DNA from: Blastomonas sp. AAP53
Lineage (GTDB): Bacteria; Pseudomonadota; Alphaproteobacteria; Sphingomonadales; Sphingomonadaceae
Direction of reading: 5' to 3'
DNA length: 64,000 nt
Assembly: GCF_000331245.1 (NCBI RefSeq)
Contig: NZ_ANFZ01000009.1
Location: forward strand, 620,001-684,000
This document shows positions 24,401 to 39,439 of this stretch, piece after piece (positions within the stretch are counted from its first letter, which is position 1; each line of letters starts with the position of its first letter). Both the position numbers and the translations under genes were made by a program. Below the pieces are notes generated by a model, which made no database searches, had not been told where the DNA came from, and was given only the letters and a program-made list of their open reading frames with translations.

Positions 24401-26495
24401 CACGCCAGATGCTGACCGCATAGCGTCTGTCTGCAGACACGGTCGCTCCATCGAACGCCAGATCCCCCAGCGGCTTGCCCTGCACGCTGAGTTGCACCTT
24501 CTGACCCGGGCGGTGGCGGATCACCACCCGTACAGCGGGCGCCGAAGGATTGTGTGTATCGAGCGGAAACAGAAAATCATCTGGCCCGTCGCCAATCGCC
24601 ATCCAGTCGGTATCGGCACCAGCCGCCCTGCGGGCACGCGCTTCGGCATCCTCCTCCTGAACCGGCAGGACCGGACCGGGCATGCTGGGCGATGCTGGAG
24701 CATTCGCTCCGATGGCAGGTGCCGCACTGGAGGGTTGCAGCGTCACAGGACTGGCTGGCCGGATGACAAAGTCGGCCACGGCAAGGCTGCCGCCCTGGCC
24801 GATGACGAAGCGCGAGATCGCACTGCCCGCCGCGCGCACGGATGATGCACATTGCTGGGGCACCGCACCGCTCGGCAGCGAATGCCTGGCGAGCTGCACG
24901 ACATGCGTGCCGGGAATCACCCCTTCGAAATGGTAACGGCCATCCGCATCGGTGATGGCAAAGCTGCCGTCTTCCATCATCACCTGAACACCCGCCAGGC
25001 CCGGGCGCGCGGGGTTTCCGCACTCGCCCTGGGTGATGCGACCGATGACCGTCATGCGGCTGGCGATGACGTCGCGCTCAACCCGCACCGAAGAGCTGGC
25101 TCTGACAAACATCTCGCGAGAGTCGGTCAAGGTGACGACATTTTCTGCATAGCCGGCCGCCGCCTCTTCGCGCACGCGCATCGCATAGGTGATCTTGCGT
25201 GCTTCGCCCGGTGCCATTCGTCCCAGACGAAGGGTAAAGCCCCTTCCATCCGGGTCCAGAAAAAGAGCTGCGGCGGGCGGGGTCACGCCATTCACCCGAA
25301 CACTGCCAGGACGGAGCCGCAGGCCCGACCGGGCGCGATCGCGAACTACAACATCGCGCATGGCGCTGCTGGGGTCCGGATTGCTGGCGAGCACGGTGTA
25401 GACCACCATCTCGCCGGGATGGACCAGAGACTTGCTGGCTGATTTGCTCAGCATGGGTTGGGTTGCGGCGCGGTCGATGGGTATGTCGATCCGGACAGGT
25501 TCGACACCCGCAACCTCGAATGCCCTGCCAAACGATCCTTCCGTCAGGACCAGCGGCTGGCCACCAATCAGGCGCAGTCCGGCCAGGTGATTGCGTGCCA
25601 TCGTCGAGGGGGCGGAAAATGGCGCAGGGGGCTGGACGACAAGCCTGTAGCTGCCGGGAGCGACCAGGGGGAAACGATATTCGCCCTCCTGCATCGCGTA
25701 GCTCGCGCCTGAGCCATCCGTGACAGGCTGGCCGCTGACCATATCCGAAGGCCAGGGCGTAATGCCATCGGGTGCATAGACCACTGCGGGTCGGCCGCTG
25801 GCATCCACCAGCGAAACACGGGCACCAGAAATCGGGCGGCCATCCTGCGAGTCGACAACAAGCCCGAACGGATCCACAAGAATGCGCACCGTGCCCACCG
25901 GAACCTGCCGACCGGCAACATCCAATATGTTCAGTTGTACCAATTGCCCAGCATCGACAGTGAGTTGGCAATCGCTGCGGGTAAAGTCCAGATTGCCACG
26001 CTGCGTTGAGACGACGCCAGCAAACACCCCACTGGAATTGCCGGTTTCCCTGAACCCGAACCTCTCCGAATCCTTTCCATCCGCCTGCATTTCCAACCAG
26101 ACCGTCTCGATACTGGCCGGGTCGCGGTTCAATTGCGGGGCAGAGATCTGGAGAACCAGTCGCTCGCCAGCAGATATTGCGTCGGTTGCAGCCAAGGGGA
26201 TGGACTGGTCGTCCTCACGCGACGCGATTGAAGATGCAGCGCCGGCGCATTGACCTGATGGCACCCGCATGGCGACGCCAGAGGATGCGGGGCGAAATGT
26301 CCGCACGGCGATGGGTGGCTGGCTGACGCTTATGCTGACCGTGTTGGAGCTGTTGGAAAAGTCACGCCCCAGCGCAGACCAGCGCGCCTGGGCGGTAGAC
26401 ACGACATCGCGCGCTGCAGCTTCGGCGACCGGAAGCGCCAAAAGCAGCAGAAACAGCGTTGCAAGAACGCCAAATGGTCGGCGGAGAGATACCAC
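21420..26495 (-). CDS. Giant exported protein: DUF11 and carboxypeptidase-regulatory-like domains plus a predicted outer-membrane barrel
   Basis: 1691 residues with a signal peptide (RRPFGVLATLFLLLLALPVAEA). The N-terminal third contains immunoglobulin-like domains, a DUF11/conserved-repeat domain (MLSKSASKSLVHPGEMVVYTVLASN) and a carboxypeptidase-regulatory-like fold (GSFAITDADGRYHFEGVIPG). The middle has IDPNSYYTVFGDGSDRRFDA and LYVRIESEGFNALYGDFVTGFD, segments found in large surface proteins of several phyla. The last about 600 residues alternate short amphipathic strands (RLLANYEIAEG, WSATSRGEWRDG, VVTVGYNVSGFDD), as in an outer-membrane beta-barrel. I infer a barrel-anchored surface protein or export platform for its operon partners; this is not demonstrated for the family. 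Confidence 0.75.
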   Translation of the reverse strand: MVSLRRPFGVLATLFLLLLALPVAEAAARDVVSTAQARWSALGRDFSNSSNTVSISVSQPPIAVRTFRPASSGVAMRVPSGQCAGAASSIASREDDQSIPLAATDAISAGERLVLQISAPQLNRDPASIETVWLEMQADGKDSERFGFRETGNSSGVFAGVVSTQRGNLDFTRSDCQLTVDAGQLVQLNILDVAGRQVPVGTVRILVDPFGLVVDSQDGRPISGARVSLVDASGRPAVVYAPDGITPWPSDMVSGQPVTDGSGASYAMQEGEYRFPLVAPGSYRLVVQPPAPFSAPSTMARNHLAGLRLIGGQPLVLTEGSFGRAFEVAGVEPVRIDIPIDRAATQPMLSKSASKSLVHPGEMVVYTVLASNPDPSSAMRDVVVRDRARSGLRLRPGSVRVNGVTPPAAALFLDPDGRGFTLRLGRMAPGEARKITYAMRVREEAAAGYAENVVTLTDSREMFVRASSSVRVERDVIASRMTVIGRITQGECGNPARPGLAGVQVMMEDGSFAITDADGRYHFEGVIPGTHVVQLARHSLPSGAVPQQCASSVRAAGSAISRFVIGQGGSLAVADFVIRPASPVTLQPSSAAPAIGANAPASPSMPGPVLPVQEEDAEARARRAAGADTDWMAIGDGPDDFLFPLDTHNPSAPAVRVVIRHRPGQKVQLSVQGKPLGDLAFDGATVSADRRYAVSIWRGVPLVDGANLLVARLVDAQGVEVRRLERVVNYSGAPIRAELIKERSSLIADGRKRPVIAVRLTDRMGRPARSGLAGQLSINAPYESAAALESLQLSQLSGAGAVAPRWMIEGDDGVALIELAPTMVSGALRLGFVFQDGDVRREQRIDTWMAPGDQPWTLIALAEGAAGAANIAGLMEQIGPEGRSIGRDARFAFYTKGKVLGKFLLTAAYDSAKERAEQRLLGVIDPNSYYTVFGDGSDRRFDAVSRERLYVRIESEGFNALYGDFVTGFDQTDLAAYRRTLTGARVEVRDGRWHAEAFAAKTASTQRRDELQGNGLTGPYRLSTRAIVPNSERIVLQVRDRFRSEVIVSQQEMVRFIDYDLDMLSATIRFRQPVLSRDADLNPRFIVIDYEVDEGRGRSAMNAGMRADYTAFGGALVVGATAVSDSTNELRSTLVAMDVRAQLGTATELRGEVAASDLGPDRGLSWQAEAEHHSGRLDVLAYARSIAPQFGIGQQNLAEKGRRKFGVDTRFAIDAAASITASTWLDQSLVDQSQRYAAQVNAVYRTQKSDWRLGFAHFSDRLSDGTRQESSVAEGAVTRRLFGDRLELELSSSVALGRAGSVDLPERYRVGARYALNSSTRLLANYEIAEGAGLAARTFSGGIELTPWNGARITSTLGQSDISEQGKRTYAAAGLAQNFQITPELGLDVSVDGNRKLGGRAVLPINPAQPLSSGGQLGDGAGLFEDFTAITFGVNWRKDRWSATSRGEWRDGELADRRGMTFGMIRQLGEGSVVGSGFVWTQASGEGLAEGTRSEVIDASLAMAFRPAESSVALLGKLEYRSDMVKGATGGDVGPVGRSALTISGDGRSRRFIGSLSGNWSPHNAKGATGESEFGFFIAARHSLEAVEGYDLTGTSVVAGFDLRKGLGKRVELGFSATVRRSLTDGDASHAYGPSIGFSPARGTVVTVGYNVSGFDDPDFDDVRPSRKGLFLVVRAKIDQDSFAFLRRNGT

Positions 26496-26516
26496 CTGCC
26501 TGCCATCGTTCTCTGG

Positions 26517-27605
26517 TTACTTGACCTCGGCCTGATAGACGAGCGTCAAGGTGCTTCCCGCCGTCAGGTCATTGAGCGTGCCACTGGCGACACCGGCATT
26601 GAAGGTGCCGCCTGCCGTGCCATCATCCTGGCAGACACCGCTCACGACCGTTCCATTGAGGCGGATGGAGTTTGCGACATAGGTCATGTCCGATGCGACC
26701 TGAGCGCTGACCGTCAATCCGCTGGCCGTTGCTCCGCCCGCAGCATTGCTGACTGCCACGCAGAACTGGACGATCGCGCCAGGGATGATCTTGGGATTGG
26801 TGGTCGTGTTCACAGGATCGCTGACGACCGTGCTGGTCTTGCTGACTGTCAACGCTGCCGCGCTGACACGATAGTCATTGATGACCCCGAACTGGCCATC
26901 ATTGGCTGAATCGCCCGAACCTGCACCATCGGCAAAAACGGTATCCACGCCAGCAGTATTGGCCCCCGCCGTCTGCGTGAGCACGGCCCCCTGGGTGTTC
27001 GCAGCGCCGCCCGCAGCGGCCGTCGCAGTCAGACGCACAGTGGCGATATCCCCCGTGACCCGGCCGTCGGGAATGTTGGCCACCACGAACAGCACGCGGT
27101 TTGCGTCTGCGGCAACCTCATCCAGATAGGTCACCTGGGCATCGGTGCCATCGTCATAGGTCCCGTTGCCATTGTCGAGAAAGATACCAACGATCGTCGC
27201 ATCGAAACTGTCGGTTCCAGGGCCAAAGGCCGACGTTGCCCCGTTGCCCAGCTGCGTGGCAGAGAGCGCAAAATCGAGCGTGTCGTTGCTCAGATTGTCC
27301 AGCCTGAATGTCGTGACCGCGCGCTGTTGCAGCGGCGCCACCACGACAGAAGCAGTGTCTGTCCGCGTCACCGTCATGTTGACCTTCCGGTCAACTGTCA
27401 CGGTCGCCGATGCTGTTGCAGCCGTCTGCTGCACACTGCCCACGCTGTAACCCACGGTCACCTGATTGGTGATGTCGGTACCAGCGGGCGTGCCTGCAGC
27501 AAATGCGGGTGTGCTGACCATCGCCAGCAGACACAATGTGCCGAAAGCTGGTTCGCGCCAGCGCCGGGGCGCTGTCTGGCAGATGGTGTAGCTCTTGATA
27601 GACAT
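26517..27605 (-). CDS. Exported DUF11-like surface protein, paralogue of the 28146-29105 protein
   Basis: 362 residues with a signal peptide ending near STPAFAAG. GTDITNQVTVGYSVGS begins a beta-sandwich domain. A DNGNGTYDDGTD segment looks like a short Asp/Asn calcium-binding loop, and a C-terminal DUF11-like domain begins ALTVSKTSTVVSDPVN. The same architecture, with DSNGNGVFDEGVD and ATVSIAKSASISDP, is seen in the first gene of the operon, so the two are diverged paralogues. Only one possible disulfide pair (FCVAV and VCQDD) is visible. It lies 21 bp upstream of the giant barrel gene. The role is probably structural at the cell surface. Confidence 0.78.
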   Translation of the reverse strand: MSIKSYTICQTAPRRWREPAFGTLCLLAMVSTPAFAAGTPAGTDITNQVTVGYSVGSVQQTAATASATVTVDRKVNMTVTRTDTASVVVAPLQQRAVTTFRLDNLSNDTLDFALSATQLGNGATSAFGPGTDSFDATIVGIFLDNGNGTYDDGTDAQVTYLDEVAADANRVLFVVANIPDGRVTGDIATVRLTATAAAGGAANTQGAVLTQTAGANTAGVDTVFADGAGSGDSANDGQFGVINDYRVSAAALTVSKTSTVVSDPVNTTTNPKIIPGAIVQFCVAVSNAAGGATASGLTVSAQVASDMTYVANSIRLNGTVVSGVCQDDGTAGGTFNAGVASGTLNDLTAGSTLTLVYQAEVK

Positions 27606-27640
27606 GTCGGTTTCCTAGGTTCTGGATCGTGCGTGCAAGG

Positions 27641-28114
27641 TCAGTTGACGGTCCCGAGATAATGAATGCTGCCCTTGGCCCCGATATCGATCTGAGGGAT
27701 GATCCAGCGCAGGTTGGTGATGTCTTCGAGTGTCGCAGCCCGGGGTTGGCCCTCCGGTCCGGCCACGGTCAGCCGGTCGAGCCGGTCGAACGTCTTGCCG
27801 CCATCGACCGAAACGAGCTGATCGGGGTCAATCGCCTTGGCCTTGACCGAGGGCGGGACCATGCAGGTGATGACGAAGTTGGTCAGCGCCACGTTGTTCT
27901 GGTTCTGATAATCGAAAACCAGCTTGAGCGTGTCGCCCGGCACCACTGTTTCGGCTGCAAGCCATTCGGCCCGGCTGTTGCCATTCTCAGTGATCTGCCG
28001 TTCGACCAGAATGCCGCTGGAGATCGCAACTTCCTCAGCCATGACCGGGCTGGCGAAAACCAGTCCCAAACAGGCCAGCATAATAGTTAACGATTTTTTT
28101 CCGTGATAGTTCAT
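27641..28114 (-). CDS. Small exported DUF11-like protein
   Basis: 157 residues from the ATG at 28114. A signal peptide (KKSLTIMLACLGLVFASPVMA) precedes one beta-sandwich domain with VVPGDTLKLVFDYQNQNNVALTNFVIT, typical of DUF11-like modules describing differences between neighbouring chains. It ends IDIGAKGSIHYLGTVN. It sits between the two larger paralogues with gaps of about 31 and 35 bp, so it is cotranscribed. No enzymatic motif is visible; a subunit or assembly role in the surface structure is inferred. Confidence 0.75.
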   Translation of the reverse strand: MNYHGKKSLTIMLACLGLVFASPVMAEEVAISSGILVERQITENGNSRAEWLAAETVVPGDTLKLVFDYQNQNNVALTNFVITCMVPPSVKAKAIDPDQLVSVDGGKTFDRLDRLTVAGPEGQPRAATLEDITNLRWIIPQIDIGAKGSIHYLGTVN

Positions 28115-28145
28115 AGCTTTACCGACCACTCATGAGTGTATGTAT

Positions 28146-29105
28146 TCACTGTATCTGAAGACGATAGACGATCGCACGACTGGCCCCGCCTGCGAGATTG
28201 CCCAATCGAACCTCGACAAGATCCTTGTTCACTGAACCGCTGTCGGTATCGGCGATGTCGCTGAGGGCAACGCCATCCAGCGTCAGGCTGGATTCAACAT
28301 AGCGCGTGCCCACCGGGACCGGGCTCGTCACCACCAGATCGGTGACCGTGCCCGAGCCGGAGACCTGCGTGTTCAATGTCATGGTGACAAAGGCTCCGGG
28401 AACCGGCTCGCTACCCCCGAAAGGATCGCTGATCGAAGCCGATTTTGCGATCGAGACCGTGGCACTCTGGATCACCAGGGTGCCATTGGCTTGCGCCCGC
28501 CCCCCGCTGCTGCCGATCACGGCGTCAACGCCTGCGCTACCCTGCCCCGCCAGTGAGACCCCAGGACTTCCAGTTCCCGTCACGGCTTCTGCCAGCAATG
28601 TGACGCGGCCCTGCTGGCCATCCGCGGCAGCACCACTGGCTTCCGCGATGACAAACACCCGCAAGCTGCCATCCGGCGCGATCTCTGGCGTCGCTGCACC
28701 GGGCTGGATCAGCTGGTCCACCCCTTCGTCGAACACGCCGTTGCCATTGCTGTCGATCGCAATTGCTTGCACCACAGGTTCAAAGTCGCTGCCGGCGACG
28801 GCGCGGGTGGAAAGGCGCATGGCTTCGGGGCCATTGCCGGTATTGACCAAAGAAAAGGCCAGCACAGCCGTGCTACCGGAAAGTCCGACAGGCCCGGAAT
28901 CCAGCGATGTCACGGCAAGATCGATAACCTCGTCGACCTTCAAGGCAATGCGGTTGGATGACACGGTGCCGCGTCCGCCAGCACTGTCGTAGCTGGCGGT
29001 TGCCGTGCTCTCGATCAGGCTTCCCGCCGTAACACCTGCCGCATGGCAAGGTGTCGCAATCGCGAAACTCAATCCGGCCAATATCAAGCCAATCCTGTCA
29101 TTCAT
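28146..29105 (-). CDS. Exported DUF11-like surface protein, first gene of the surface operon
   Basis: 319 residues. The signal peptide is MNDRIGLILAGLSFAIATPCHAAG. The next segment, ESTATASYDSAGGRGTVSSN, resembles the IESTATATY openings of surface repeat proteins. DSNGNGVFDEGVD is a likely calcium loop and SATVSIAKSASISDPFGG opens a C-terminal DUF11-like domain. It is paralogous to the 362-residue protein downstream. The AT-rich stretch just before the ATG (AAATTT-N5-AAATTT at about 29130-29146) is the likely promoter or operator of the whole operon. No enzymatic motif was found. Confidence 0.78.
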   Translation of the reverse strand: MNDRIGLILAGLSFAIATPCHAAGVTAGSLIESTATASYDSAGGRGTVSSNRIALKVDEVIDLAVTSLDSGPVGLSGSTAVLAFSLVNTGNGPEAMRLSTRAVAGSDFEPVVQAIAIDSNGNGVFDEGVDQLIQPGAATPEIAPDGSLRVFVIAEASGAAADGQQGRVTLLAEAVTGTGSPGVSLAGQGSAGVDAVIGSSGGRAQANGTLVIQSATVSIAKSASISDPFGGSEPVPGAFVTMTLNTQVSGSGTVTDLVVTSPVPVGTRYVESSLTLDGVALSDIADTDSGSVNKDLVEVRLGNLAGGASRAIVYRLQIQ

Positions 29106-30296
29106 GATGACGATTTATCGAGAAAGCCTCAAATTTGTGTTAAATTTGGGGAGCGAAAAATTAACCACTTTTCGAAACGAATTCAGGCAGGTGGTGATTC
29201 GGACAGGGACCGGTGACGACCGTCTTCGTCCCGCTGGGCGTTGGCTTTCCCGAAGGATTCACTGTCAGGCGCGGCCATTCTGAAGACGGCCAATCCCCGT
29301 CTTCATCGCAACCACTTGCGCCTCATCGTGCATGGCTGACCGCAACGAGACCGATCATTGCCAACTGCAGTGGCCACGACGGATTTGCTCCAACCCGGTC
29401 ATCAGTCGGTCGTTGCGAGCCTCGGTATCCGGGGACGTTTCGCTGACGGTCAAGTGAGGGCGATGACGCGAACCCATCCCCATACAGATTTGGAGCTGCG
29501 CCACTGCCGGATCGGCAAGGGCTGAATGTTTTGCTCCGGCAGAAGCTCGATGCCCTTCGCGCGCGCAATCGGCTGCGGCTAATCAGCGAAAAACCGGCCC
29601 AGCGGTTCTAACGATGACACACTGGGATCTTCCCGATCGCCGGCGATTGCGGCAGTCCCTCTCAACAGGGAGGGTGGTGGCAGGGCTTGTATCGAACCAT
29701 TAAGCTATCGCATTGTAATATTATGTGTTTTAAAATGGTGAGAAATCTACCCCCTCACTTTCTCCCACATTTTTGAGCGGATAGGGCAGTGAATGCTCCG
29801 ATCGTGCCCTACCCTGCCTTGGTTAGTTGACGTCTCAGACCATAAATAGGCGGGTCGATGAATCACCTTCCCGATTAGCTGAGTAGGTTGTCTTCTTTCG
29901 ACCCAAACCCGGTCGTTCAGGACAGGCGCCATCAATGTCCGTCCCTGCTAAAAGCTGCCTATATGGCAAAGCGACGCGGACATTTTGAAACGCGCCTTCG
30001 ATCACTCACTTTAGGCCAATCACAGGCTGCCTGGTAAGCGGCGTTGGAGTTCGTGCAGGTAGGCTAGGGGGAGGCCTGCAGGCGTCCGAATCCCTATGAG
30101 TCACGCACATGACACCGCGCATCGTTTTCGGTGGCAACAAACTTTAGGATAACTGCCCTGAAGAGGGCGGTGCCGATGCCAGCTACAGATTCTGTGGAAG
30201 ACGAGTGTCACATCCCAGCGCTCCCACCGCATTTCGCTCGAGCCGCAGTTGGAGGCGGTCAACGAAAGGGATCACGCCTCCAATCTGGGTTAGCTT
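29106..30296. other. 1.2-kb region without a credible gene
   Basis: Short open frames here lack ribosome sites and recognisable domains. It contains the promoter area of the surface operon (about 29106-29175), copy 2 of the 98-bp repeat (29673-29772), and at 29899-29918 a 20-base sequence nearly identical to part of the inverted repeat at 39272-39290. It looks like decayed mobile or repeat DNA separating the surface operon from the ECF regulon. Confidence 0.55.
29673..29772. repeat. Diverged intergenic repeat, copy 2
   Basis: Partner of 14757-14854 (GGTGGTGGCAGGGCTTGTATC to CACTTTCTCCCACAT). This copy is more AT-rich. The minus strand reads GGTTCGATAC-AAGCCCTGCCACC, like a tRNA T-arm and acceptor end, but without the rest of a tRNA. 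It may be the relic of an integration site. Confidence 0.5.
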
Positions 30297-30905
30297 TTAA
30301 TAGTGACTTTGTGTCCCCTTAATATCTACGGAACAGACGCCAGATGATGCCTGAGCTTGCCCGAAATTTTCCCGGGGAAGCAGGTCGAAGATCAGGTGAA
30401 TTCTGTCTTCATTGCCGTCGTTGCAGGCTTCGTGTATCTGGTTGTTATCAAACCACCATAGCTCACCAGTCTGCATCCGCACTTCCTCATCCCCTGCGCG
30501 CATCCAAGAGCCGGCAGATTTCAGCACCAGGTGATAGCGGTTGCGCAGACGATAATATTCACCTCGGTCAATATGCGGATACACCTTGTGCCCCGGCGGC
30601 AGGCAAACGAGTTTTGCGCGGGAGAGCAAGCCCCCTTGCTGTTCTCCAGCTTGCTCCAGAAATGTCCGGGCCAGCGGGAAGCGCTGTGATCCAGTGGTCC
30701 AGCGACTTTCATGGACATCGCGGCGCTCTCTGCCCCCAATCGCCGATGCACGCAGACCGCGCAGCGGGATTGAAAGGGCTTCGCGCTGAACCGCGATTTT
30801 CTCCTGACGACCGCAATTGGACATGAATGCGTTATCTACCGCAGCAATTTCGGCAAGCAGTGGACCTGGGTCTATATGGGATTGCAATAGCCGGAAATAC
30901 CTCAC
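30297..30905 (-). CDS. Aspartyl/asparaginyl beta-hydroxylase family dioxygenase
   Basis: A Fe(II)/2-oxoglutarate oxygenase that in characterised members hydroxylates Asp or Asn side chains. In the longer numbering (start 30926) the iron ligands are H118 in YPHID and H165 in NNQIHEA, with R175 in DRIHLIFD as the 2-oxoglutarate anchor; GELWWFDNN is typical. There is no signal peptide, so it acts in the cytoplasm. The GTG at 30905 has AAGGAG six bases upstream and is preferred; the ATG at 30926 has no ribosome site and would add seven residues. A promoter with the ECF signature lies upstream (30944-30970), linking it to the neighbouring sigma factor. The substrate is unknown. Confidence 0.85.
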   Translation of the reverse strand: MRYFRLLQSHIDPGPLLAEIAAVDNAFMSNCGRQEKIAVQREALSIPLRGLRASAIGGRERRDVHESRWTTGSQRFPLARTFLEQAGEQQGGLLSRAKLVCLPPGHKVYPHIDRGEYYRLRNRYHLVLKSAGSWMRAGDEEVRMQTGELWWFDNNQIHEACNDGNEDRIHLIFDLLPRENFGQAQASSGVCSVDIKGTQSHY

Positions 30906-30943
30906 CTCATTCTCCTTATCTAGCATTGTGAAGGGTCAGCCAG

Positions 30944-30970
30944 AGACGAGTGAGGGCGGGGGTTTATTCC
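30944..30970 (-). promoter_or_regulatory. ECF-type promoter upstream of the beta-hydroxylase
   Basis: On the minus strand GGAATAAA (30970-30963), 14 bases, then CGTCT (30948-30944). This is one of four sites with the same halves and spacing in a 6-kb stretch. The -10 lies about 39 bases before the preferred GTG start. Confidence 0.78.
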
Positions 30971-31132
30971 CGGTGTAAGTGTCAGGGCCTCATGGACACC
31001 GGTCGCGCAGATAAGCTGTGACCCTGCAGGCCATTAGACCGATCTTGGCCACCGGAGACGTCACGCCACAACAGGCCGGGCATGTGGCGGTCGGATAAAA
31101 ATACCCTCGGATCGACTTTTTTCCGTCGGTCG

Positions 31133-31159
31133 GGAATAATTCTGCGCGCTGCCCCGTCA
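31133..31159 (+). promoter_or_regulatory. ECF-type promoter of the P-loop/ABC/hydrolase/porin operon
   Basis: GGAATAAT (31133-31140), 14 bases, CGTCA (31155-31159), then 31 bases to the ATG at 31191 with AGGAG in between. It matches the sigma-factor promoter except for the last base of each half. Confidence 0.75.
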
Positions 31160-31190
31160 CCTGAACGAACCGAACAACAGGAGCGTTCAG

Positions 31191-32288
31191 ATGCAGCACG
31201 ATACCTTGAACCACAAGCCCAGCAAATTGCGTGAGGCTCGTCTTCCCCAGCGCCTTGCCAGGACCAAGCGGGCATTCACCACTCGCCGCGTCGACCTTGA
31301 TCAGGCCACCCGGATTATTCGTTCTGGCGTTGCGCCTAAGCCGGGCGATCTGGTTCTGGCGCGGGTGACGGCGATTGGCCAGCACCGGCGGATCGAAAAT
31401 CTCCATGGCCGCCGCGGCGACCTGTTTGTCGGTGACGAAATCATCGTTGCCTATGGCAACCGCTATGCCCCGGACCAATTCGAGGCATTCGTGCCCGATG
31501 ACTTGAGCGAGTGCCACCTGGTTGCAGGCGGCGGCGTCGCCTCGAAGATGACCGTCAAGCATGTCTCGATGAAGCTGCCCACCCGGATCGAACCGATTGG
31601 TCTGTTGGGTAATGCCGCTGGCGAGGTGATGAATCTGCGCAATCACGCCTTGTCGCATCCCGCCAACCCATTCCGCCGCTCGCCGGTCCGCATTGTGGTT
31701 GCCGGAAGCTCGATGAATGCGGGCAAGACGACCACCGTCGCATCGCTAGTCCGCGGCCTGACACTGGCTGGCTTTCGCGTCGGGGCAGCAAAGCTCACCG
31801 GCACCGGTTCGGGAGGTGACCTCTGGTCGATGATCGACTCCGGCGCTGCTGCAGCGCTCGATTTTACCGACGCTGGCCATGCGTCGACCTTCGGGCTTGA
31901 TACTGCGGCCCTCACGGGCATCGCGGAAAACCTGCTTGCCGCGCTGGATGACCGCAATTGCGATGTCGTTATCTGCGAGATCGCCGATGGACTGCTGCAG
32001 CAAGAGACGGCAGCATTGCTGGAGGTCGCAAGGCAGAAGGGCTGGTTCGACGGTCTGATCTTTGCTGCAGGTGACGCCATGGGCGCGGCTTATGGTGCCA
32101 ATTGGCTGCTGGAGCGGCAGCATGATCTGCTGGCTATCTCTGGTCTGCTGACTGCCTCGCCTCTGGCCAGTCGTGAAGCCGCAGCTGCGACCGGACTGCC
32201 GATCGTGGGCATCCCTCAGCTGACCGACCCTATTGAGGTCGCCAAGCTTATCTTCTCCAAACCGCCGGTCCTGAAGCGGGTCGCATGA
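31191..32288 (+). CDS. P-loop NTPase of unknown function (MobB/dethiobiotin-synthetase-like, perhaps DUF1611)
   Basis: 365 residues, cytoplasmic. The first about 160 residues form a basic N-terminal domain without a recognised motif. The P-loop is AGSSMNAGKTT (residues 171-181), followed by GFRVGAAKLTGTGSGGD, which resembles the GLxVGxxKxT strand of MobB and dethiobiotin synthetases. DVVICEIADGLLQQE is a likely Walker B region. DUF1611-type enzymes (D-Glu N-acetyltransferase DgcN) share this fold, but I am not sure of the assignment. It is the first gene of a four-gene operon behind an ECF-type promoter, and its stop overlaps the next ATG. It may be an ATP-dependent ligase or transferase acting on a small molecule or peptide. 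Confidence 0.65.
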   Translation: MQHDTLNHKPSKLREARLPQRLARTKRAFTTRRVDLDQATRIIRSGVAPKPGDLVLARVTAIGQHRRIENLHGRRGDLFVGDEIIVAYGNRYAPDQFEAFVPDDLSECHLVAGGGVASKMTVKHVSMKLPTRIEPIGLLGNAAGEVMNLRNHALSHPANPFRRSPVRIVVAGSSMNAGKTTTVASLVRGLTLAGFRVGAAKLTGTGSGGDLWSMIDSGAAAALDFTDAGHASTFGLDTAALTGIAENLLAALDDRNCDVVICEIADGLLQQETAALLEVARQKGWFDGLIFAAGDAMGAAYGANWLLERQHDLLAISGLLTASPLASREAAAATGLPIVGIPQLTDPIEVAKLIFSKPPVLKRVA

Positions 32289-33205
32289 TGAAGCCGGGAC
32301 TTCTGGCTGGCGGTAGGGGCGTCTGGCTGGTTGCACTGGTACTCAGCGCAATCAGCCAGGCTGCTGCCGCGGCGGCCTTCGCGGAATTTTTTGGCCTTGC
32401 TTTGCAGGATAGCGATACGCCCAGATTGATAGAACTATTGGGGTTGATCGCAGCCTTGCTGGCAGCGGCCAGTTTTGCCGAACGCCTGGTGGGAGAGATT
32501 GTCGCCCAATCCTATATCCATTCTGTCCGGCTGGAACTGTTTGAGGCGCTGATTGCGCACAAGGGAACAACCAGCGAGGCGCAATGGCTGAACCCGTTGG
32601 TCAATGATCTGGGAGCTTTGCGGAACTGGGCAGCGCGGGGGCCGGTGCGGCTACTTACCTCAGCAATTGCCCTGATTGTTGCGATAGCCTTTTTCGTGGT
32701 GCGCTACCCTCAGTTGGCTTGGGCCGCGTTGCCCTTTCCGGTGTGCGTCGGCCTCATCTGGTTTGCTGCTCCCCGGCTTCGCGAAACGATCCGTCAGCAA
32801 CGCCGGACGCGGGGCGGCCTCACCAGGTTCATTGTCCGCCGCGCAAGAGTTGAGGCATCGGGTCTCAACAAGAAGAACAGGCACGGCCGGATTTCCATGA
32901 CAGATCGTTCCAAACAGCTTGGTCAGCTTACCGTTGCGCGGGCCCGCATTTTTGCATTGCTGGAAGGTGCAGCAACAGCTGCCCCCGCATCCGCGCTCAT
33001 AATTGTTGCCCTTGTCTCAATTGGGCAAGGAATGGACTCCTCCATGACCGTGGCTGCCATCACATTGCTTGGCTTTGCCGGGGCTCGCCAAATAGAAATC
33101 GTGCGTGCCGTACACGCATCAATAGGGGGCAATGTTGCCCATCGACGTATTGAGCACGTGCTTAGCAATGCTCAGAAAGCAAGGGACTTCTCCAATGCCG
33201 GTTGA
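32285..33205 (+). CDS. ABC transporter type-1 membrane domain without ATPase domain
   Basis: 306 residues with about five to six membrane helices (LVALVLSAISQAAAAAAFAEF, LLGLIAALLAAASF, LLTSAIALIVAIAFFVV, WAALPFPVCVGLIWF, ASALIIVALVSIGQG). Between them are long cytoplasmic loops and an arginine-rich intracellular section. It looks like the transmembrane half of an ABC exporter, ending where the nucleotide-binding domain would begin. No Walker A, LSGGQ or Walker B motif is present. It might pair with an ATPase elsewhere or with the P-loop protein upstream. It overlaps the upstream gene by 4 bp and the hydrolase by 11 bp, so it is tightly coupled. Confidence 0.65.
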   Translation: MMKPGLLAGGRGVWLVALVLSAISQAAAAAAFAEFFGLALQDSDTPRLIELLGLIAALLAAASFAERLVGEIVAQSYIHSVRLELFEALIAHKGTTSEAQWLNPLVNDLGALRNWAARGPVRLLTSAIALIVAIAFFVVRYPQLAWAALPFPVCVGLIWFAAPRLRETIRQQRRTRGGLTRFIVRRARVEASGLNKKNRHGRISMTDRSKQLGQLTVARARIFALLEGAATAAPASALIIVALVSIGQGMDSSMTVAAITLLGFAGARQIEIVRAVHASIGGNVAHRRIEHVLSNAQKARDFSNAG

Positions 33206-34031
33206 TCTTTCAAGACTTGCCAACAACAGGTCGGACCGCAAGGTCACCTGCGTGCGATCAAATTCAGACCTTATCCCTGACTATTATATCCGTCGCGGCA
33301 CAAAGGCGCTTCCTGGGCGGACCCTTGTTTTGCTGCATGGTATCTCGCGCAATGCCGCCGAGCTTGCGCTGCGCTTTGCCGAATCCGGGTACTGGGATGA
33401 ATGGACATTGATTGCTCCGGTGTTTGAGCGGCAAAGGTTCGGCCAGTTCCAGCAGATGATGGCAAAGCAAAGCCAGATTCCGTCCGATCAGGCGCTGAGC
33501 GCATTGCTGAAACGGATATTCGATGAAGCAGGCATCGATGAGCATCCCGTCCACCTGTTTGGTTTCTCGGGCGGAGCGCAGCTTGCGCACCGGTTTGCCA
33601 TGCTTAACCCGCACAAGGCTGCAGGTGTGTTTGCTATGGCGGCAGGCTGGTATTTGATGCCCGATGACAATATTGCCTATCCTTATGGGCTGGGTGATCT
33701 GGGGCCGCTACGCTCATGCGACCTTGTCCGGGCGCTGACTATACCGATGGTGGTTGCTGTCGGGGCGCTGGATACCCGGTGCGACGACGTTGTGCGGCAG
33801 GACCGCATCATCAATAGGACACAAGGACGAAATCGCTACATTCGTGCCCGAAAATGGCACAAAGCGGTCAACCGCATCGCACTCGAACAGGGTATTTTGC
33901 ACACGATTGCGCTACAAGTGATCGCAAACGGAACCCATAATTTCGGCCAGTGTGTCGAGGAAACAGACCTGATGGATCGCGTGCACACGGCATTCGCCGG
34001 TGGCACCTTCATGTTCAACAATGCACTTTAG
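33195..34031 (+). CDS. Alpha/beta hydrolase
   Basis: 278 residues starting at the ATG at 33195, which overlaps the end of the membrane-domain gene. The core has LVLLHGISRNAAELA (oxyanion strand), WTLIAPVFERQRFG, HLFGFSGGAQLAHRFA with the nucleophile Ser in GFSGG, and a late GTHNFGQC giving the catalytic His. GALDTRCDDV carries the likely acidic residue. There is no signal peptide. Within the operon it may hydrolyse a peptide or ester intermediate; no substrate can be named. The start at 33132 in the same frame is rejected because it lies deep inside the previous gene. Confidence 0.8.
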   Translation: MPVDLSRLANNRSDRKVTCVRSNSDLIPDYYIRRGTKALPGRTLVLLHGISRNAAELALRFAESGYWDEWTLIAPVFERQRFGQFQQMMAKQSQIPSDQALSALLKRIFDEAGIDEHPVHLFGFSGGAQLAHRFAMLNPHKAAGVFAMAAGWYLMPDDNIAYPYGLGDLGPLRSCDLVRALTIPMVVAVGALDTRCDDVVRQDRIINRTQGRNRYIRARKWHKAVNRIALEQGILHTIALQVIANGTHNFGQCVEETDLMDRVHTAFAGGTFMFNNAL

Positions 34032-34047
34032 GCGAGGGGGCCTTAGG

Positions 34048-35097
34048 ATGAAGAACTTTTGCAAGATTGCCGCTGCATTGCTGTGCACCGCCAGCGTGCC
34101 CGCCATGGCAGAACCCGTCCTGCCGGAGCTACGCCTGCAATATGAGGGTCTCGACCTGCATCTTCAGGTTGGTGTTTCGGGCCAGGGTGCGATTGTCGAT
34201 GATGACGATCGCCGCACAAAGGATGAAGATGCCCAAGCTGACCTATTTGCCCGGCTGAACGCCGATTACACTACAGCCGGAGGTGTGCTGCTGGGCGCCA
34301 ATATCGAATTCAACAACCGCAACCGCGAGACGGAATCGCTGGAAAACGGTGAAATCTATGCGTTCGCTGCGACCGAATATGGCCGTATTGAAATCGGCAA
34401 GCAGGATGGTCCAGCCGACGTTCTCGCATTTCATGCGCCGGTTGCGGCACTCGGGCAAGTGCGCGGCGACTTTGCCCGCTACGCAGGATCGCAGGCGCTG
34501 CTTTCGGCCGTGGATACCCGCGACGCTTTCAAAATCATCTATCTGACGCCACCGATCAGCGGCCTTCGCGGCGGTGTGTCCTATTCGCCCAAGGCAACCG
34601 TCAATGGCGATGCACCAGATCCGCGCGACCGGATTGTACTGCGCGATGCGGTCGAGTTCGGGCTGCAATATGTCCAGCCGATCGGTGAATGGATCGTCGG
34701 CTTCAGCGGTGGCTATGCCTCCGGCGAGGCTGACGTGATCACGCAGCGGGCCGATCTCAGTTCCTGGAGCGTCGGCACCGAAGTCAGGCGCGGCCCGCTG
34801 CGCATTGGCGCAGCCTATGTCGATCGCGGGAACAGCAACCGCCGAGAACGCAACTTCGACCAATGGGAGATCAACGGCGGGATCGGCTGGTTCGAACCGC
34901 GATGGGGCGTGTCTGCCAGCACGGCTTATTCGGAAGCCACAACCCAGTCCAACCGGTTGCTGGGCATTGGCGGCTATTATTCGATCACGCGCAACATCCA
35001 GATCCGATCTGACATCGTGCAGTTCCGCGAAGGCAGACTGGGTCGGCGTGACGAAGATGGTGTTGTGGCGCTGATTGAACTCGCTCTCATCATCTGA
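34048..35097 (+). CDS. Outer-membrane porin
   Basis: 349 residues: signal peptide MKNFCKIAAALLCTASVPAMA, then alternating beta strands (ADYTTAGGVLLGANIEF, YGRIEIGKQDG, IGAAYVDRGNS, WGVSASTAYSE) and a C-terminal strand ending ALIELALII. EIGKQDGPADVLA is the typical trimeric Gram-negative porin loop. It lies 16 bp downstream of the hydrolase, with a GGCGAGGGGG ribosome region, and is the last gene of the ECF-driven operon before the strong terminator. It suggests that a product of this system, or its precursor, crosses the outer membrane. Confidence 0.87.
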   Translation: MKNFCKIAAALLCTASVPAMAEPVLPELRLQYEGLDLHLQVGVSGQGAIVDDDDRRTKDEDAQADLFARLNADYTTAGGVLLGANIEFNNRNRETESLENGEIYAFAATEYGRIEIGKQDGPADVLAFHAPVAALGQVRGDFARYAGSQALLSAVDTRDAFKIIYLTPPISGLRGGVSYSPKATVNGDAPDPRDRIVLRDAVEFGLQYVQPIGEWIVGFSGGYASGEADVITQRADLSSWSVGTEVRRGPLRIGAAYVDRGNSNRRERNFDQWEINGGIGWFEPRWGVSASTAYSEATTQSNRLLGIGGYYSITRNIQIRSDIVQFREGRLGRRDEDGVVALIELALII

Positions 35098-35125
35098 CCG
35101 GCGCTGCCTGATTGCTTCAGAAATT

Positions 35126-35163
35126 AAAAAAGGGGCTGCTCCATGGAAGGGCAGCCCCTTTTT
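35126..35163. terminator. Strong bidirectional intrinsic terminator
   Basis: A stem of AAAAAAGGGGCTGC with GCAGCCCCTTTTT around an 11-base loop, with T-runs on both strands. It separates the porin operon (plus) from the anti-sigma/sigma operon (minus) and can end both. Confidence 0.9.
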
Positions 35164-35247
35164 CTTGTTCTCGCAGCGGGGTTAGCGGCCAGGCTCCAGG
35201 CACCGAAGTGGAGCCTGAACCATCGGCAACCGATTATCAGCGAACGT

Positions 35248-36018
35248 TCAATGGGCCTCCTTGAGCGCCTTGGCTTCAGCAGCCGCATCGAGCGGCTCTC
35301 CTGCGATCAAGTCATCGACCGCCGCCAAAACAGGCTCTGCGGCATCGCCACTGGCCGTGCGGATATCACCTGCCTCAATAGCTCGCGTGCCGACCGCCTC
35401 AATGCGCCACTGCTGGGCTTTCCAGCAGGCAGCGCCATCCGTCGCTGCGGTGTCACCTTCGACAGAAAACTGTCGGCAAAGTCGTCCATCGCCATCGCGA
35501 AAGCTGATGCTCATCCGGGCCCGCCCTGCGCCTTCAAGCATTTTGACTTCGCCGCCAGGAAGCTGGGACAGCACCCGCGCAAGGTCCTTCGACGCAATTG
35601 GACCATCGGCAGACGCCAGGACCAGTGTCTCGCCGCTGCCGGAATCACCACCTGAGCCGGTCATGAATTGGCTGCCCACGACAAGGCCCAGAGCCAGCGA
35701 GGCTGCCATCGACAATCCTGTCGCCCAATATCTGCGCGGCCGGCTGGCGGACTGTTTTGCCTGCGCAAAACTGACGACATTGGTGATCATGGGTGGCGGA
35801 ACGACACTGTCCAGCAGCGACCTTGGCACCGGTTGCTCCAGAACCCCGGCAAAGGCAGCACGCAGGCCGTCATCGTTTTCCAGATGATCCATCAGCGTCT
35901 CGAGCCGTGCATTGAGGCTCGTGTCGGCTTCCAGCAGCAAAGCGATTTCTTCGCAACGCTCTTCCGGCAAATCGCCAGTCGCAAACGCCTTCAACTCTTC
36001 GTCGGTCACGTGCTTCAC
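35248..36018 (-). CDS. Anti-sigma factor, single-pass membrane protein
   Basis: 256 residues. The N-terminal about 95 residues are a cytoplasmic helical domain (TDEELKAFATGDLPEERCEEIALLLEAD), a layout common to anti-sigma factors, though the zinc-binding HxxxCxxC motif is absent. One membrane helix lies at about 98-119 (ATGLSMAASLALGLVVGSQFM). The outer domain has Cys residues in GRLCRQF and ACWKAQQ that could form a periplasmic disulfide. Its start overlaps the sigma-factor stop (36015-36018), the standard coupling. It most likely holds the ECF sigma factor inactive until an envelope signal, perhaps cleavage, releases it. Confidence 0.85.
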   Translation of the reverse strand: MKHVTDEELKAFATGDLPEERCEEIALLLEADTSLNARLETLMDHLENDDGLRAAFAGVLEQPVPRSLLDSVVPPPMITNVVSFAQAKQSASRPRRYWATGLSMAASLALGLVVGSQFMTGSGGDSGSGETLVLASADGPIASKDLARVLSQLPGGEVKMLEGAGRARMSISFRDGDGRLCRQFSVEGDTAATDGAACWKAQQWRIEAVGTRAIEAGDIRTASGDAAEPVLAAVDDLIAGEPLDAAAEAKALKEAH

Positions 36019-36521
36019 TGCACCAAGCCTCCCGCCAGGGTTTGGGCGATGGCACCGCGCGCGCGCGATAGCCGGCTCATGACGGTGCCGATCGGCACAT
36101 TGAGCAGCTCGGCCGCTTCGCGATATGCCAAGCCTTCGAGTATGACGGCGGAGACGACTTCGCGCTGTTCCAGCGGCAACATATCTACCGCGCGCCTGAG
36201 TCCGGCCATTTCGCTGCGGCGGTCCGTCGTTTCGCGGCCATCTTCGCCAACCAGATCGATCATCTCGCTGACGTCATCGTGCGGCGACTTGACCCTCGCG
36301 CTGCGACGATCATCACGCCATGCGTTTCGGACGATGGCAAACATCCACCGATCGAGCAGCACGTCTTCTCTCAACTGGTCCATTCGCTGAAAAGCCTTTT
36401 CACAGGCCGATTGCACAAGATCGTCGGCATCGGCCATATTTCCTGTCAGAGCGCGCGCGAATCGGCGCAGGCGGGGCAGCAGTTTCACGATTTCCTGTGC
36501 GTAGCCGTCGCGGTCGTTCAT
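36015..36521 (-). CDS. ECF-family RNA polymerase sigma factor
   Basis: 168 residues. Region 2 (about 15-75) contains DADDLVQSACEKAF and the WMFAIVRNAWRD promoter-melting part. Region 4 (about 112-160) is LPLEQREVVSAVILEGLAYREAAELLNVPIGTVMSRLSRARG, with the helix-turn-helix that reads the -35. The DNA just upstream holds a site, GGAATAAA-N14-CGTCT, that fits autoregulation; the -10 is only about 14 bases before the ATG. The same motif lies before the protease, the P-loop operon and the beta-hydroxylase, so this sigma factor is the best candidate to drive all four units. Confidence 0.92.
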   Translation of the reverse strand: MNDRDGYAQEIVKLLPRLRRFARALTGNMADADDLVQSACEKAFQRMDQLREDVLLDRWMFAIVRNAWRDDRRSARVKSPHDDVSEMIDLVGEDGRETTDRRSEMAGLRRAVDMLPLEQREVVSAVILEGLAYREAAELLNVPIGTVMSRLSRARGAIAQTLAGGLVQ

Positions 36522-36535
36522 GGCGTTCTCAGGTT

Positions 36536-36562
36536 AGACGAAGCATGATGCAGCTTTATTCC
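36536..36562 (-). promoter_or_regulatory. ECF-type autoregulatory promoter of the sigma/anti-sigma operon
   Basis: Minus strand GGAATAAA (36562-36555), 14 bases, CGTCT (36540-36536). It has the same halves and spacing as the divergent promoter at 36578-36604. The very short distance to the sigma ATG implies an almost leaderless transcript. Confidence 0.82.
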
Positions 36563-36577
36563 GTCGATAGGGGATGT

Positions 36578-36604
36578 GGAATAAACCGTATAGGTCGTTC
36601 GTCT
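36578..36604 (+). promoter_or_regulatory. ECF-type promoter of the subtilase operon
   Basis: GGAATAAA (36578-36585), 14 bases, CGTCT (36600-36604), followed by GGGGG at 36622-36626 and the GTG start at 36632. It is divergent to the sigma promoter with 15 bp between the two -35 boxes. Confidence 0.82.
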
Positions 36605-36631
36605 GGCTTATGATCGAATCTGGGGGATGCC

Positions 36632-38419
36632 GTGGCCAAGTTAACGCAATGCTGGCTTTTTTCGCTGCTGATGCTGGCCATTGCCGGAGCGCATATCGCG
36701 CCCGTGGATGGCGCAGTAGCCCAGTCGAATTCTGGCGACCCCGATGACGATGACGACGAGGATGGCGGCGGCGACGATGACGACGACGTTCCTGATCCAG
36801 ATGATCCGGAAGATCCAGGTGACGGCGGCGATCCCGATGAAGGTGGCGACCCTGGCGACGGCGGCGGTGGCGATGACGACGGTGGCGATGCTGCCGGGGA
36901 TGATGACGGGGGCATGGGGGACGACGACGGTGGTGATGGCGCCGGAGATGACGATGGCGGCGAATCCACCGGAGATGACGATGACGATGACGGTGGCGTT
37001 GGCGGGCAGGACGATGATGACTCTGCCGGTGGTTCCGATGACGATGACGATGACGACGGTCAGGCAGGATCAGCAGCCGGCGGCGATGACGACGATGATG
37101 ATGGCAGTGATGACGACAGTGCAGCCGGCAGCGGAGTAGCTGCGGCCGCTGGCGATGATGATGACGACGCTGGCGAAGATGACAACGATGATCGCGCCTC
37201 CTCCGGCAGCGCGACGCAGGATCGCGACGATAGTGATGACGATGATGATCGCGGCGAAGCGGCCAGCGGGCCTGAACTCAATGACCGCGACGATGACAGC
37301 GACGATCTCGGGCCGACCCAATATTTGGGCGGTGGCGAGGAAGCGGAAACCGAACGGATAGCAGCCGACCGGCGCGACGCCATCGACGTGGACCGCGACG
37401 GCTTCCGCTATCGCCGGAACGAGTTTGTGGCAGTGGACCTCGACGCCGCCGATGTTGCCAAGCTCAAGTCCAATGGCTTCCAGGTGATCGAGACGGCCAA
37501 TCTTGCCGCTGTCGGTGGTTCGGTCAGTCTCGTGCGCGGGCCCGCCACGATGAACGATGAAGCCGCTTCGGCCGCCATTGATCGGATCGCTGATCCGACG
37601 GCCCTTAGCTTCAACTATCTGTTCGATTCATCTTTTTCGCGGGTTTCCAAGGCCCCGAAACGCAAGCTGAATCCAGCGCCAGCCTGCGGCTGCCAGATCG
37701 GATTGATCGATACCGGCGTCGCAGCAACGTTGCCGGCCTTCAGGCACGTGAAGATTCAGCAGCGTGCGTTCAATGGACCGCAGGCTGCGCCCAAGGCCCA
37801 TGGAACGGCCGTAGCGCACATGTTTGCAGGAACTGGTCCAGCACCAGGCCGTAAAGCGACGACGATCTTTGTTGCCGACATCTTTGCTGGGCCGCGAGCC
37901 AGCTCAGGCTCGACCTTCGCTCTGGTCAAGGCCATCAACTGGATGGCGGAGCAAAAGGTTCCAGTGGTGAACATCAGCCTGGCGGGGCCATCGAGCGTCG
38001 TCGTAGGTAAGGCGGTTGAACGGCTATCCGCGAAGGGACAAATCATTGTCGCGGCCGTTGGTAACGACGGTCCAGCCGCGCCCCCGGTATTCCCCGCCGC
38101 CTATCCCAACGTTGTCGGAGTAACGGCCGTCGATAAGTCAGGCTCAATCTATCGCTATGCCAACCGCGGCAGCTATGTAGATTTTGCAGCCTATGGAGTC
38201 GATGTCACTTCGCTCGATGCAGGCGGCAATGTGATTGCAGCCACCGGAACATCATTTGCAGCCCCGCGAGTCGCCCGTGCACTCGCCAGGGGATTGCCGG
38301 TGGCGGATGGCACCAAGGCCGCTCAGGCGCTCAAGCTGCTGGAAAGCAAAACGCGAGATCTTGGGCGACCGGGCAAGGACCCTGCCTTTGGCCTTGGCAT
38401 TGTGGAGATAGACGAATGA
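36632..38419 (+). CDS. Exported S8 subtilisin-like protease with a long aspartate-rich tract
   Basis: 595 residues from the GTG at 36632. Signal peptide: about residues 1-30 (CWLFSLLMLAIAGAHIAPVDGAVA). Residues about 35-226 are an extremely acidic Gly/Asp low-complexity tract with runs of four to seven Asp. Residues 235-345 may act as a pro-domain, and the S8 domain spans about 350-595. Catalytic residues are D360 (LIDTG), H390 (AHGTAV), oxyanion N478 (VGNDG) and S541 (GTSFAAP), all intact. No C-terminal barrel or secretion repeat is present. The acidic tract may bind calcium, act as an inhibitory propeptide, or be a substrate of the neighbouring Asp hydroxylase (speculative). It is driven by an ECF-type promoter. 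Confidence 0.9.
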   Translation: MAKLTQCWLFSLLMLAIAGAHIAPVDGAVAQSNSGDPDDDDDEDGGGDDDDDVPDPDDPEDPGDGGDPDEGGDPGDGGGGDDDGGDAAGDDDGGMGDDDGGDGAGDDDGGESTGDDDDDDGGVGGQDDDDSAGGSDDDDDDDGQAGSAAGGDDDDDDGSDDDSAAGSGVAAAAGDDDDDAGEDDNDDRASSGSATQDRDDSDDDDDRGEAASGPELNDRDDDSDDLGPTQYLGGGEEAETERIAADRRDAIDVDRDGFRYRRNEFVAVDLDAADVAKLKSNGFQVIETANLAAVGGSVSLVRGPATMNDEAASAAIDRIADPTALSFNYLFDSSFSRVSKAPKRKLNPAPACGCQIGLIDTGVAATLPAFRHVKIQQRAFNGPQAAPKAHGTAVAHMFAGTGPAPGRKATTIFVADIFAGPRASSGSTFALVKAINWMAEQKVPVVNISLAGPSSVVVGKAVERLSAKGQIIVAAVGNDGPAAPPVFPAAYPNVVGVTAVDKSGSIYRYANRGSYVDFAAYGVDVTSLDAGGNVIAATGTSFAAPRVARALARGLPVADGTKAAQALKLLESKTRDLGRPGKDPAFGLGIVEIDE

Positions 38420-39057
38420 TCGGATCTGCCCTTATCGCTGCCGCGCTTGCCGCAGCCATGCCTACCATGCCGCTGCCACAGTATGAGGTAAACGATGCGT
38501 TCGTTTACACCGACGGACGGGTGGAACGCGTTCGCTCAGTCAAAGGCACCACGGTGGTCTGGAGCGGCCTAAACAACCAGCGCTACACGCGAAGTCGAAA
38601 TTTCATCGTGCCGGTGCTGAAGTGGCGCGCAGGCAGGGGATCTGGCGAACGCAGGATCGTTGGCAATCCCGACAAGCTTTGGCCGCTCGACGGATCAAAA
38701 AGGGCGAGGTTCCGCGCCATTGCAGAAACCAAACTCAAGGCTCAATCGCGGCCCAGGCGGGCGATGACCTTCTGGACTTGCGGCTCCGATGACGTTCGGC
38801 AGAGCACGGTTCCAGCTGGCACGTTTTCTGTCATTCCGGTTCGGTGTGAACGATATTCGGCAACGACGATGCGCTTGATTGAGCGGATCGAATGGGAGTT
38901 CGCACCCGAGCTTGGCCACTATGTGCAACGATCCGACACAGACTATCTGCGGGGCACAAAGCGCAATATCAGCCTTTATGCGGCGCTGCGCGGACCGGCC
39001 GCCGAGAAACGCAGGCTGGCGGCTTTGTCGAAGGCTGCGCGGCAGTCGAAGATTTGA
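38416..39057 (+). CDS. Exported hypothetical protein coupled to the subtilase
   Basis: 213 residues with a probable signal peptide (MIGSALIAAALAAAMPTMP). Its ATG overlaps the protease stop (ATGA at 38416-38419). One domain is visible, with VYTDGRVERVRSVKGTTVVW and two Cys residues (WTCGSDDV, VRCERYS) that could form a disulfide. The C-terminal tail is basic (KRNISLYAAL, EKRRLAALSKAARQSKI). I do not recognise the family. Translational coupling suggests a chaperone, inhibitor or substrate of the protease. Its basic tail could contact the acidic tract of the protease (inference). Confidence 0.7.
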   Translation: MIGSALIAAALAAAMPTMPLPQYEVNDAFVYTDGRVERVRSVKGTTVVWSGLNNQRYTRSRNFIVPVLKWRAGRGSGERRIVGNPDKLWPLDGSKRARFRAIAETKLKAQSRPRRAMTFWTCGSDDVRQSTVPAGTFSVIPVRCERYSATTMRLIERIEWEFAPELGHYVQRSDTDYLRGTKRNISLYAALRGPAAEKRRLAALSKAARQSKI

Positions 39058-39439
39058 ACTAAAAGGCTGGTATGCTTGACCTCCAATGACGTGGAAGGGC
39101 TAGGCTCTCGCCTGATGACGCCGCTCAGAACACGAGCCATTTGCAGCAGCTATTTGTGAGGGATTAGCCGGTCATCGTTCGTCTGCTAGTGGAGAAACCT
39201 GCCGCTTTCCACACTGCGAGGGAACGACCGGAAAGTCCCACGATCCGGCGTTCGTGGTTCGAGGCGGTAATCGACCACACCCGGTCGTTCCGATGTGGCC
39301 GCAGGAATGTCGGCCTACGCCGTAACCGGTCACTCGATCGTTTGACAGCTACCAAGTGGGGAGATTTGGTCGGCACCCTCGCCATCTATATGGTTCACCG
39401 ATTGTCCAGTGAGGGTGTGGCGGACGCGCCGTTCCAACC
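39058..39439. repeat. Intergenic gap with a nested inverted repeat
   Basis: No gene. GGAACGACCGG at 39221-39231 and CCGGTCGTTCC at 39281-39291 are perfect 11-bp inverted arms. Inside them are GTGGTTCGA and TCGACCAC. The right arm extended leftwards (39272-39290) recurs almost exactly at 29899-29918, so it is a dispersed intergenic repeat in this genome. It may also end transcription from the subtilase operon. Confidence 0.55.

Follow-up and report, generated by a model that had tools for sequence, protein, structure and literature searches.

A predicted compact ECF26 sigma factor regulon with a candidate envelope export pathway in Blastomonas sp. AAP53

Nine neighbouring genes in the window (the whole 64,000-nt stretch of DNA that was analysed) very probably constitute a single regulon of a predicted envelope-stress sigma factor of group ECF26, as judged from sequence. 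On balance we also favour a fuller explanation, in which this is a compact ECF26 regulon whose targets form an envelope export pathway. The fuller explanation is held less firmly than the regulon itself, because the function of the pathway is read from protein families and gene neighbours. The genes, the four promoters in front of them and the segment that carries them are as follows.

29177..39271, no strand: accessory segment of ~10.1 kb containing the whole regulon, missing from congeners at these positions
30297..30926, minus strand: Asp/Asn beta-hydroxylase family protein, 209 aa (PF05118, E 1.3e-16)
30944..30970, minus strand: predicted promoter GGAATAAA-N14-CGTCT, 17 nt 5′ of the hydroxylase start
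31133..31159, plus strand: predicted promoter GGAATAAT-N14-CGTCA, 31 nt 5′ of the P-loop gene
31191..32288, plus strand: P-loop protein, 365 aa, with an N-terminal beta-rich domain and a C-terminal DTBS/DUF1611-like NTPase domain
32285..33205, plus strand: ABC exporter transmembrane domain protein, 306 aa (PF00664, E 2.4e-07; no ABC_tran)
33195..34031, plus strand: alpha/beta hydrolase (weak Abhydrolase_2/_1 matches, E 2e-4 to 2e-3)
34048..35097, plus strand: Porin_4 family porin, 349 aa (PF13609, E 3.1e-26)
35127..35163, no strand: 15-pair hairpin with A and T runs at its flanks, between the convergent porin and anti-sigma genes
35248..36018, minus strand: anti-sigma factor, 256 aa (27% identical to Sinorhizobium meliloti EcfR6)
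36015..36521, minus strand: ECF sigma factor of ECF26 type, 168 aa (sigma-70 regions 2 and 4)
36536..36562, minus strand: predicted promoter GGAATAAA-N14-CGTCT, 14 nt 5′ of the sigma factor start
36578..36604, plus strand: predicted promoter GGAATAAA-N14-CGTCT, 27 nt 5′ of the subtilase start
36632..38419, plus strand: S8 family serine protease (subtilase), 595 aa (PF00082, E 1.4e-27)
38416..39057, plus strand: predicted periplasmic protein, 213 aa, with a YmcC/DUF1849/LolA-like predicted fold (Z 8 to 11)

The initial annotation had described the motif GGAATAAW-N14-CGTCW at these four positions, two of them divergent with 15 bp between them, had counted nine genes behind them and had reported no fifth match in the window. 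All of this was borne out. An exact search returned the same four sites, on the same strands, and none in 100 shuffles of the window, and no additional site appeared in the 64,000 nt when up to two mismatches were tolerated. In the whole genome (3,616,216 bp) the same four sites were the only matches, even with a spacer of 13–15 allowed, whereas a reversed control pattern had none; from base composition about 0.14 such sites would be expected per genome. At up to two mismatches, 60 matches occur genome-wide, which equals the control count, and the nearest match outside the cluster is a single site with one mismatch. All four promoters lie inside 5.7 kb, and each stands directly upstream of the gene start that it faces, at a distance of 14–31 nt, as had been proposed. 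The S. meliloti promoter table suggests that transcription begins 8–10 nt past CGTC (PMC6180224). If this applies here, the 5′ leaders of the sigma factor and hydroxylase transcripts would measure just ~6–10 nt.

Conservation of the promoter was assessed in related loci (denoted by L numbers). A search with the P-loop protein yielded 80 loci, of which 20 with similar gene content were picked for promoter counts. In these 20 loci (0.4 Mb) the general form GGAATA-N15/16-CGT had 73 matches, against 1–2 for five scrambled forms. It was found 5′ of the P-loop orthologue in 18 of the 20 loci, of all 16 sigma factor orthologues and of all five hydroxylase orthologues, fractions that are somewhat favoured because the loci were picked partly after motif matches had been seen. 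S8 protease genes are under-counted in these 20-locus counts because their N-termini vary; an ORF-based count found the promoter before 11 of them. The gene caller also overlooked some genes in the related loci, so neighbourhood counts are lower bounds. A whole-genome search of 22 genomes detected six hydroxylase orthologues, all six preceded by the promoter, one of them outside the stretch surrounding its sigma factor locus. Several relatives also have the promoter in front of outer-membrane barrel genes that diverge from the P-loop gene. The remaining 60 P-loop loci had the promoter 5′ of the P-loop gene in one case only, which fits the action of other regulators there, and no exact site was present in congeners lacking the P-loop gene. 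Invariance of the 14-nt spacer, another feature of the initial annotation, holds for the four sites of the window but not for the relatives, in which the spacing is GGAATA-N15 or N16-CGT and the −10 element is CGTT in about 80%. Absence of the motif before orthologues in related genomes had been named as evidence that would count against the regulon; the motif is present there. Its conservation supports, as a prediction, the proposal that one ECF sigma factor serves its own operon and the hydroxylase, P-loop and subtilase operons. At L025:8748 (minus strand) the promoter form stands 5′ of a gene for a 537 aa thymidine-phosphorylase-like protein, divergent from a barrel gene, and this gene may be an extra member of the regulon.

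The initial annotation could not match the gene combination to a described system. For the regulator this has to be revised, since group ECF26 is described with just this sigma/anti-sigma/divergent protease arrangement and a GGAATA/CGT promoter (PMC6180224). In S. meliloti this group comprises RpoE1, 3, 4 and 6, with the consensus −35 GGAATA and −10 GT; a membrane anti-sigma factor is encoded downstream, and rpoE6 has a divergent serine protease gene, a layout reportedly widely conserved (PMC6180224). The window shares these features: the sigma and anti-sigma genes overlap, consistent with the cotranscription of ECF26 pairs, the promoters have −35 GGAATA and −10 CGT, and the serine protease gene is divergent, as with RpoE6. 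The anti-sigma factor has a cytoplasmic N-terminus with the anti-sigma domain, one apparent membrane segment (identified by eye) and a periplasmic domain with a Cys pair; the two-Cys pattern is common to its orthologues. The hairpin downstream of the anti-sigma gene is likely to act as a two-way terminator.

The sigma factor is 44.5% identical to S. meliloti RpoE6 over 137 aa, and the anti-sigma factor has its counterpart in EcfR6. The protease is 34% identical to SMa0142; both proteases are encoded divergently from the sigma factor gene, but the Asp run of SMa0142 is shorter. Two mapped RpoE6-dependent promoters on pSymA have the form GGAATA-N15-CGT; RpoE6 promoters combine a spacer of 15 with CGTT, whereas those of the window combine a spacer of 16 (counted from GGAATA) with CGTC. 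The promoter of the RpoE4-EcfR4 pair, also ECF26, is GGAATAAGCGAGGCAGCTCGCTCGTCT, with the spacing and the CGTCT of the window; RpoE4, however, controls sulfite oxidation genes in a sulfite response (PMC3511301), and none of these is in the window regulon. The RpoE6 targets reported as strongest comprise an enzyme of the glyoxalase family, the protease and hypothetical proteins (PMC6180224), and in the 24 kb examined around rpoE6 there was no homologue of the P-loop, porin or hydroxylase genes. Because layout, promoter and similarity match ECF26, the predicted regulator is of a known kind; the assignment is based on layout, promoter and pairwise similarity and not on a tree. As far as we found, it is the set of target genes that has no matching description.

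The four genes of the P-loop operon are tightly packed; the hydrolase probably starts at 33195, not at 33132, and the porin at 34048. The P-loop protein has ~50 residues invariant in 30 sequences, which come from several phyla and are 46–62% identical to the window copy. Its structure was modelled with a pLDDT of 92.5. The C-terminal domain of the model is closest to dethiobiotin synthetase, CTP synthetase, SRP GTPases and the structure 2g0t, which we take to be a DUF1611 protein, with Z of about 15–16. The superposition on dethiobiotin synthetase (Z 16.4, 180 residues, 3.0 Å) speaks for a common fold of the P-loop domain. Plasmid records label relatives as DUF1611 or dethiobiotin synthase. 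Against the DUF1611 profile (PF07755) the protein scored 14.4 bits, under the gathering score of 25, and within the DUF1611/dethiobiotin synthetase superfamily it is set apart by conserved motifs of its own, e.g. GNRYAPDQFEA. A sequence search for related solved structures returned none, and a literature search for DUF1611 together with an ABC transporter gave only an unrelated match.

No ATPase domain and no Walker A motif were found in the exporter protein, which on this count is not a complete ABC exporter, and its nearest relatives also lack the ATPase domain. Active export by this protein alone is doubtful for that reason. Among the related lineages Walker A was unrecognisable or the ATPase domain lost in several (L025, L028, L037, L040, L080, L086); others were intact. 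The Abhydrolase_2/_1 scores of the hydrolase are under the curated cut-offs. The hydroxylase passed the PF05118 gathering score (61.3 bits vs 22.6). It is missing from most genomes that have the P-loop gene and is therefore regarded as optional; no link between an Asp hydroxylase and an ECF sigma factor was found in the literature.

The P-loop core recurs in other phyla. In gammaproteobacteria, cyanobacteria and others the genes that repeatedly adjoin the P-loop gene encode an ABC exporter, an alpha/beta hydrolase and a porin, of OprP type or another. Sometimes the transporter is an MFS protein and not an ABC exporter, and often the sigma factor is replaced by a histidine kinase/response regulator pair. 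A Paracoccus albus plasmid carries the hydrolase, P-loop, ABC, S8 protease and sigma factor genes together with matching promoters, and a Sulfitobacter plasmid carries the hydroxylase, hydrolase, P-loop and ABC genes together without the promoter. Adjoining the Paracoccus cluster (L121:2407-4275) are an HTTM-domain gene, annotated as gamma-carboxylase-like and with an ECF26-type promoter upstream, and a DUF393 gene. In three gammaproteobacterial loci (L048, L054, L091) the P-loop module has next to it genes that look like a second recurrent pair, one of them, in L048, encoding a DUF5666 protein. Beside P-loop genes of Vibrio-type loci and of one Paracoccus plasmid lie genes for small secreted proteins whose tails or repeats are rich in Asp (L037:9333-9764, L076:9182-9691, L080:9429-9827 and L121:4540-4992); the Paracoccus protein also contains a stretch resembling an EF-hand, and a matching promoter is located about 230 nt 5′ of its gene.

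The subtilase has an apparent signal peptide and a long Asp-rich N-terminal tract, which is kept in most orthologues and is longer still in a Chromatiales locus; the S. meliloti and Paracoccus proteases have shorter Asp runs. Its gene overlaps at the end with that of the 213 aa protein. The latter has no Pfam match, and its model (pLDDT 90.9) resembles YmcC (GfcB) and DUF1849 and, at a greater distance, LolA and RseB. Among these periplasmic proteins Z reaches 11 at about 10% sequence identity, and no capsule genes adjoin the window copy. Two other ideas about these genes were discarded. Poly-aspartate was rejected as a tag common to regulon members across the genome: in the loci examined, other genes encoding six-Asp runs in congeners and in 15 genomes had no such promoter, and several looked generic, e.g. 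RpoD-like or RNase E-like. A role in anti-phage defence was dropped after PADLOC yielded nothing beyond a similarity of the subtilase to IetS.

The segment that carries the regulon is accessory. In two congeners the alignment with the window covers just the part to the right, from 39272 onwards, and in a third just the part to the left, up to 29176; none of the three has the cluster genes there. No one congener joins both flanks, so the site cannot be called cleanly empty. The simplest reading would be that the whole block was gained or lost as a unit, and the patchy distribution of the P-loop protein, with relatives in 7 of 149 related genomes (two of the seven weak), fits such gain or loss. 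To the left of the segment, at 21420-29105, lie genes for repeat/surface-type proteins of 1691, 362, 162 and 319 aa; the 319 aa gene is shared with one of eight congeners only, at 85% identity.

In the model that we favour, the membrane-anchored anti-sigma factor would hold the sigma factor, and sensing would probably take place through its periplasmic Cys-pair domain. The freed sigma factor is predicted to activate its own operon and the three others from near-identical promoters, which are conserved across genera. The P-loop enzyme, the alpha/beta hydrolase and the Asp/Asn-hydroxylase-like oxygenase may make or modify a product, which may exit through the exporter half and the porin, and the secreted acidic-tract subtilase and the YmcC-like protein may act in the envelope; for these steps families and neighbours are the guide.

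The subtilase and the YmcC-like protein could instead belong to the sensing apparatus, the protease cutting the anti-sigma factor in the periplasm as a positive feedback and the YmcC-like protein modulating it as RseB and MucB do for RseA and MucA. Where relatives have both genes, the protease gene is nearly always divergent from the sigma factor gene, and the predicted fold of the YmcC-like protein resembles RseB and MucB with a Z of about 7, but these matches are weaker than those to YmcC and DUF1849, and a sigma-controlled protease that frees the same sigma factor would be an atypical site-1 protease. Moreover, relatives of the YmcC-like protein are encoded in the L074 P-loop operon and next to the P-loop and hydrolase genes in L039; in L024-L028, where sigma factor and S8 protease are present, no relative was detected. 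An effector role is favoured over an RseB-like sensor because these relatives accompany the P-loop operon in other lineages, and we regard the sensing arrangement as unlikely. It is far less probable still that nothing beyond its own operon and the divergent protease is under the control of the sigma factor, with the hydroxylase and P-loop sites being coincidental or those of another sigma factor. S. meliloti and Rhizobium do have the sigma-protease pair with no P-loop genes detected nearby, and other ECF members of the group are able to cross-activate promoters of this kind (PMC10880074); against this, P-loop and hydroxylase orthologues of many genera have retained the motif upstream, and the chance expectation per genome given above is low.

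For the P-loop set itself, uptake or envelope maintenance in place of product export is an idea that we doubt, if a little less than the sensing role. The porin could serve uptake, the OprP-type porins of the relatives being anion channels, and an exporter half without an ATPase domain may have been repurposed; however, the intact transporters among the relatives are of the exporter type (PF00664 with PF00005), and elsewhere an MFS protein substitutes. With similar reserve we put forward a wider proposal, in which the P-loop, exporter, hydrolase and porin genes with the hydroxylase and protease would represent an undescribed multi-phylum pathway for the synthesis and export of a hydroxylated product, either acidic or metal-binding. 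Its regulators would be interchangeable, with ECF26 acting in sphingomonads and two-component systems in other groups, and the exporter ATPase domain would have been lost in one clade. The target pathway of the ECF26 regulon as we favour it appears to be undescribed in the literature searched.

ECF26 sigma factors encoded beside a serine protease have been reported to be widely conserved, and microarrays gave no defined role for S. meliloti RpoE6 (PMC6180224). The type of regulator was already known; what is new, as far as we found, is the set of targets, namely the P-loop protein, exporter half, hydrolase, porin, hydroxylase, subtilase and YmcC-like protein. Four promoters genome-wide, all within 6 kb, and the same targets across genera offer a concrete handle on the role of the ECF26-protease type. 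A widespread P-loop family, for which the annotated records consulted gave no label beyond DUF1611 or dethiobiotin synthase, is also connected in this way with a transporter, a hydrolase and an oxygenase, and so with a testable pathway.
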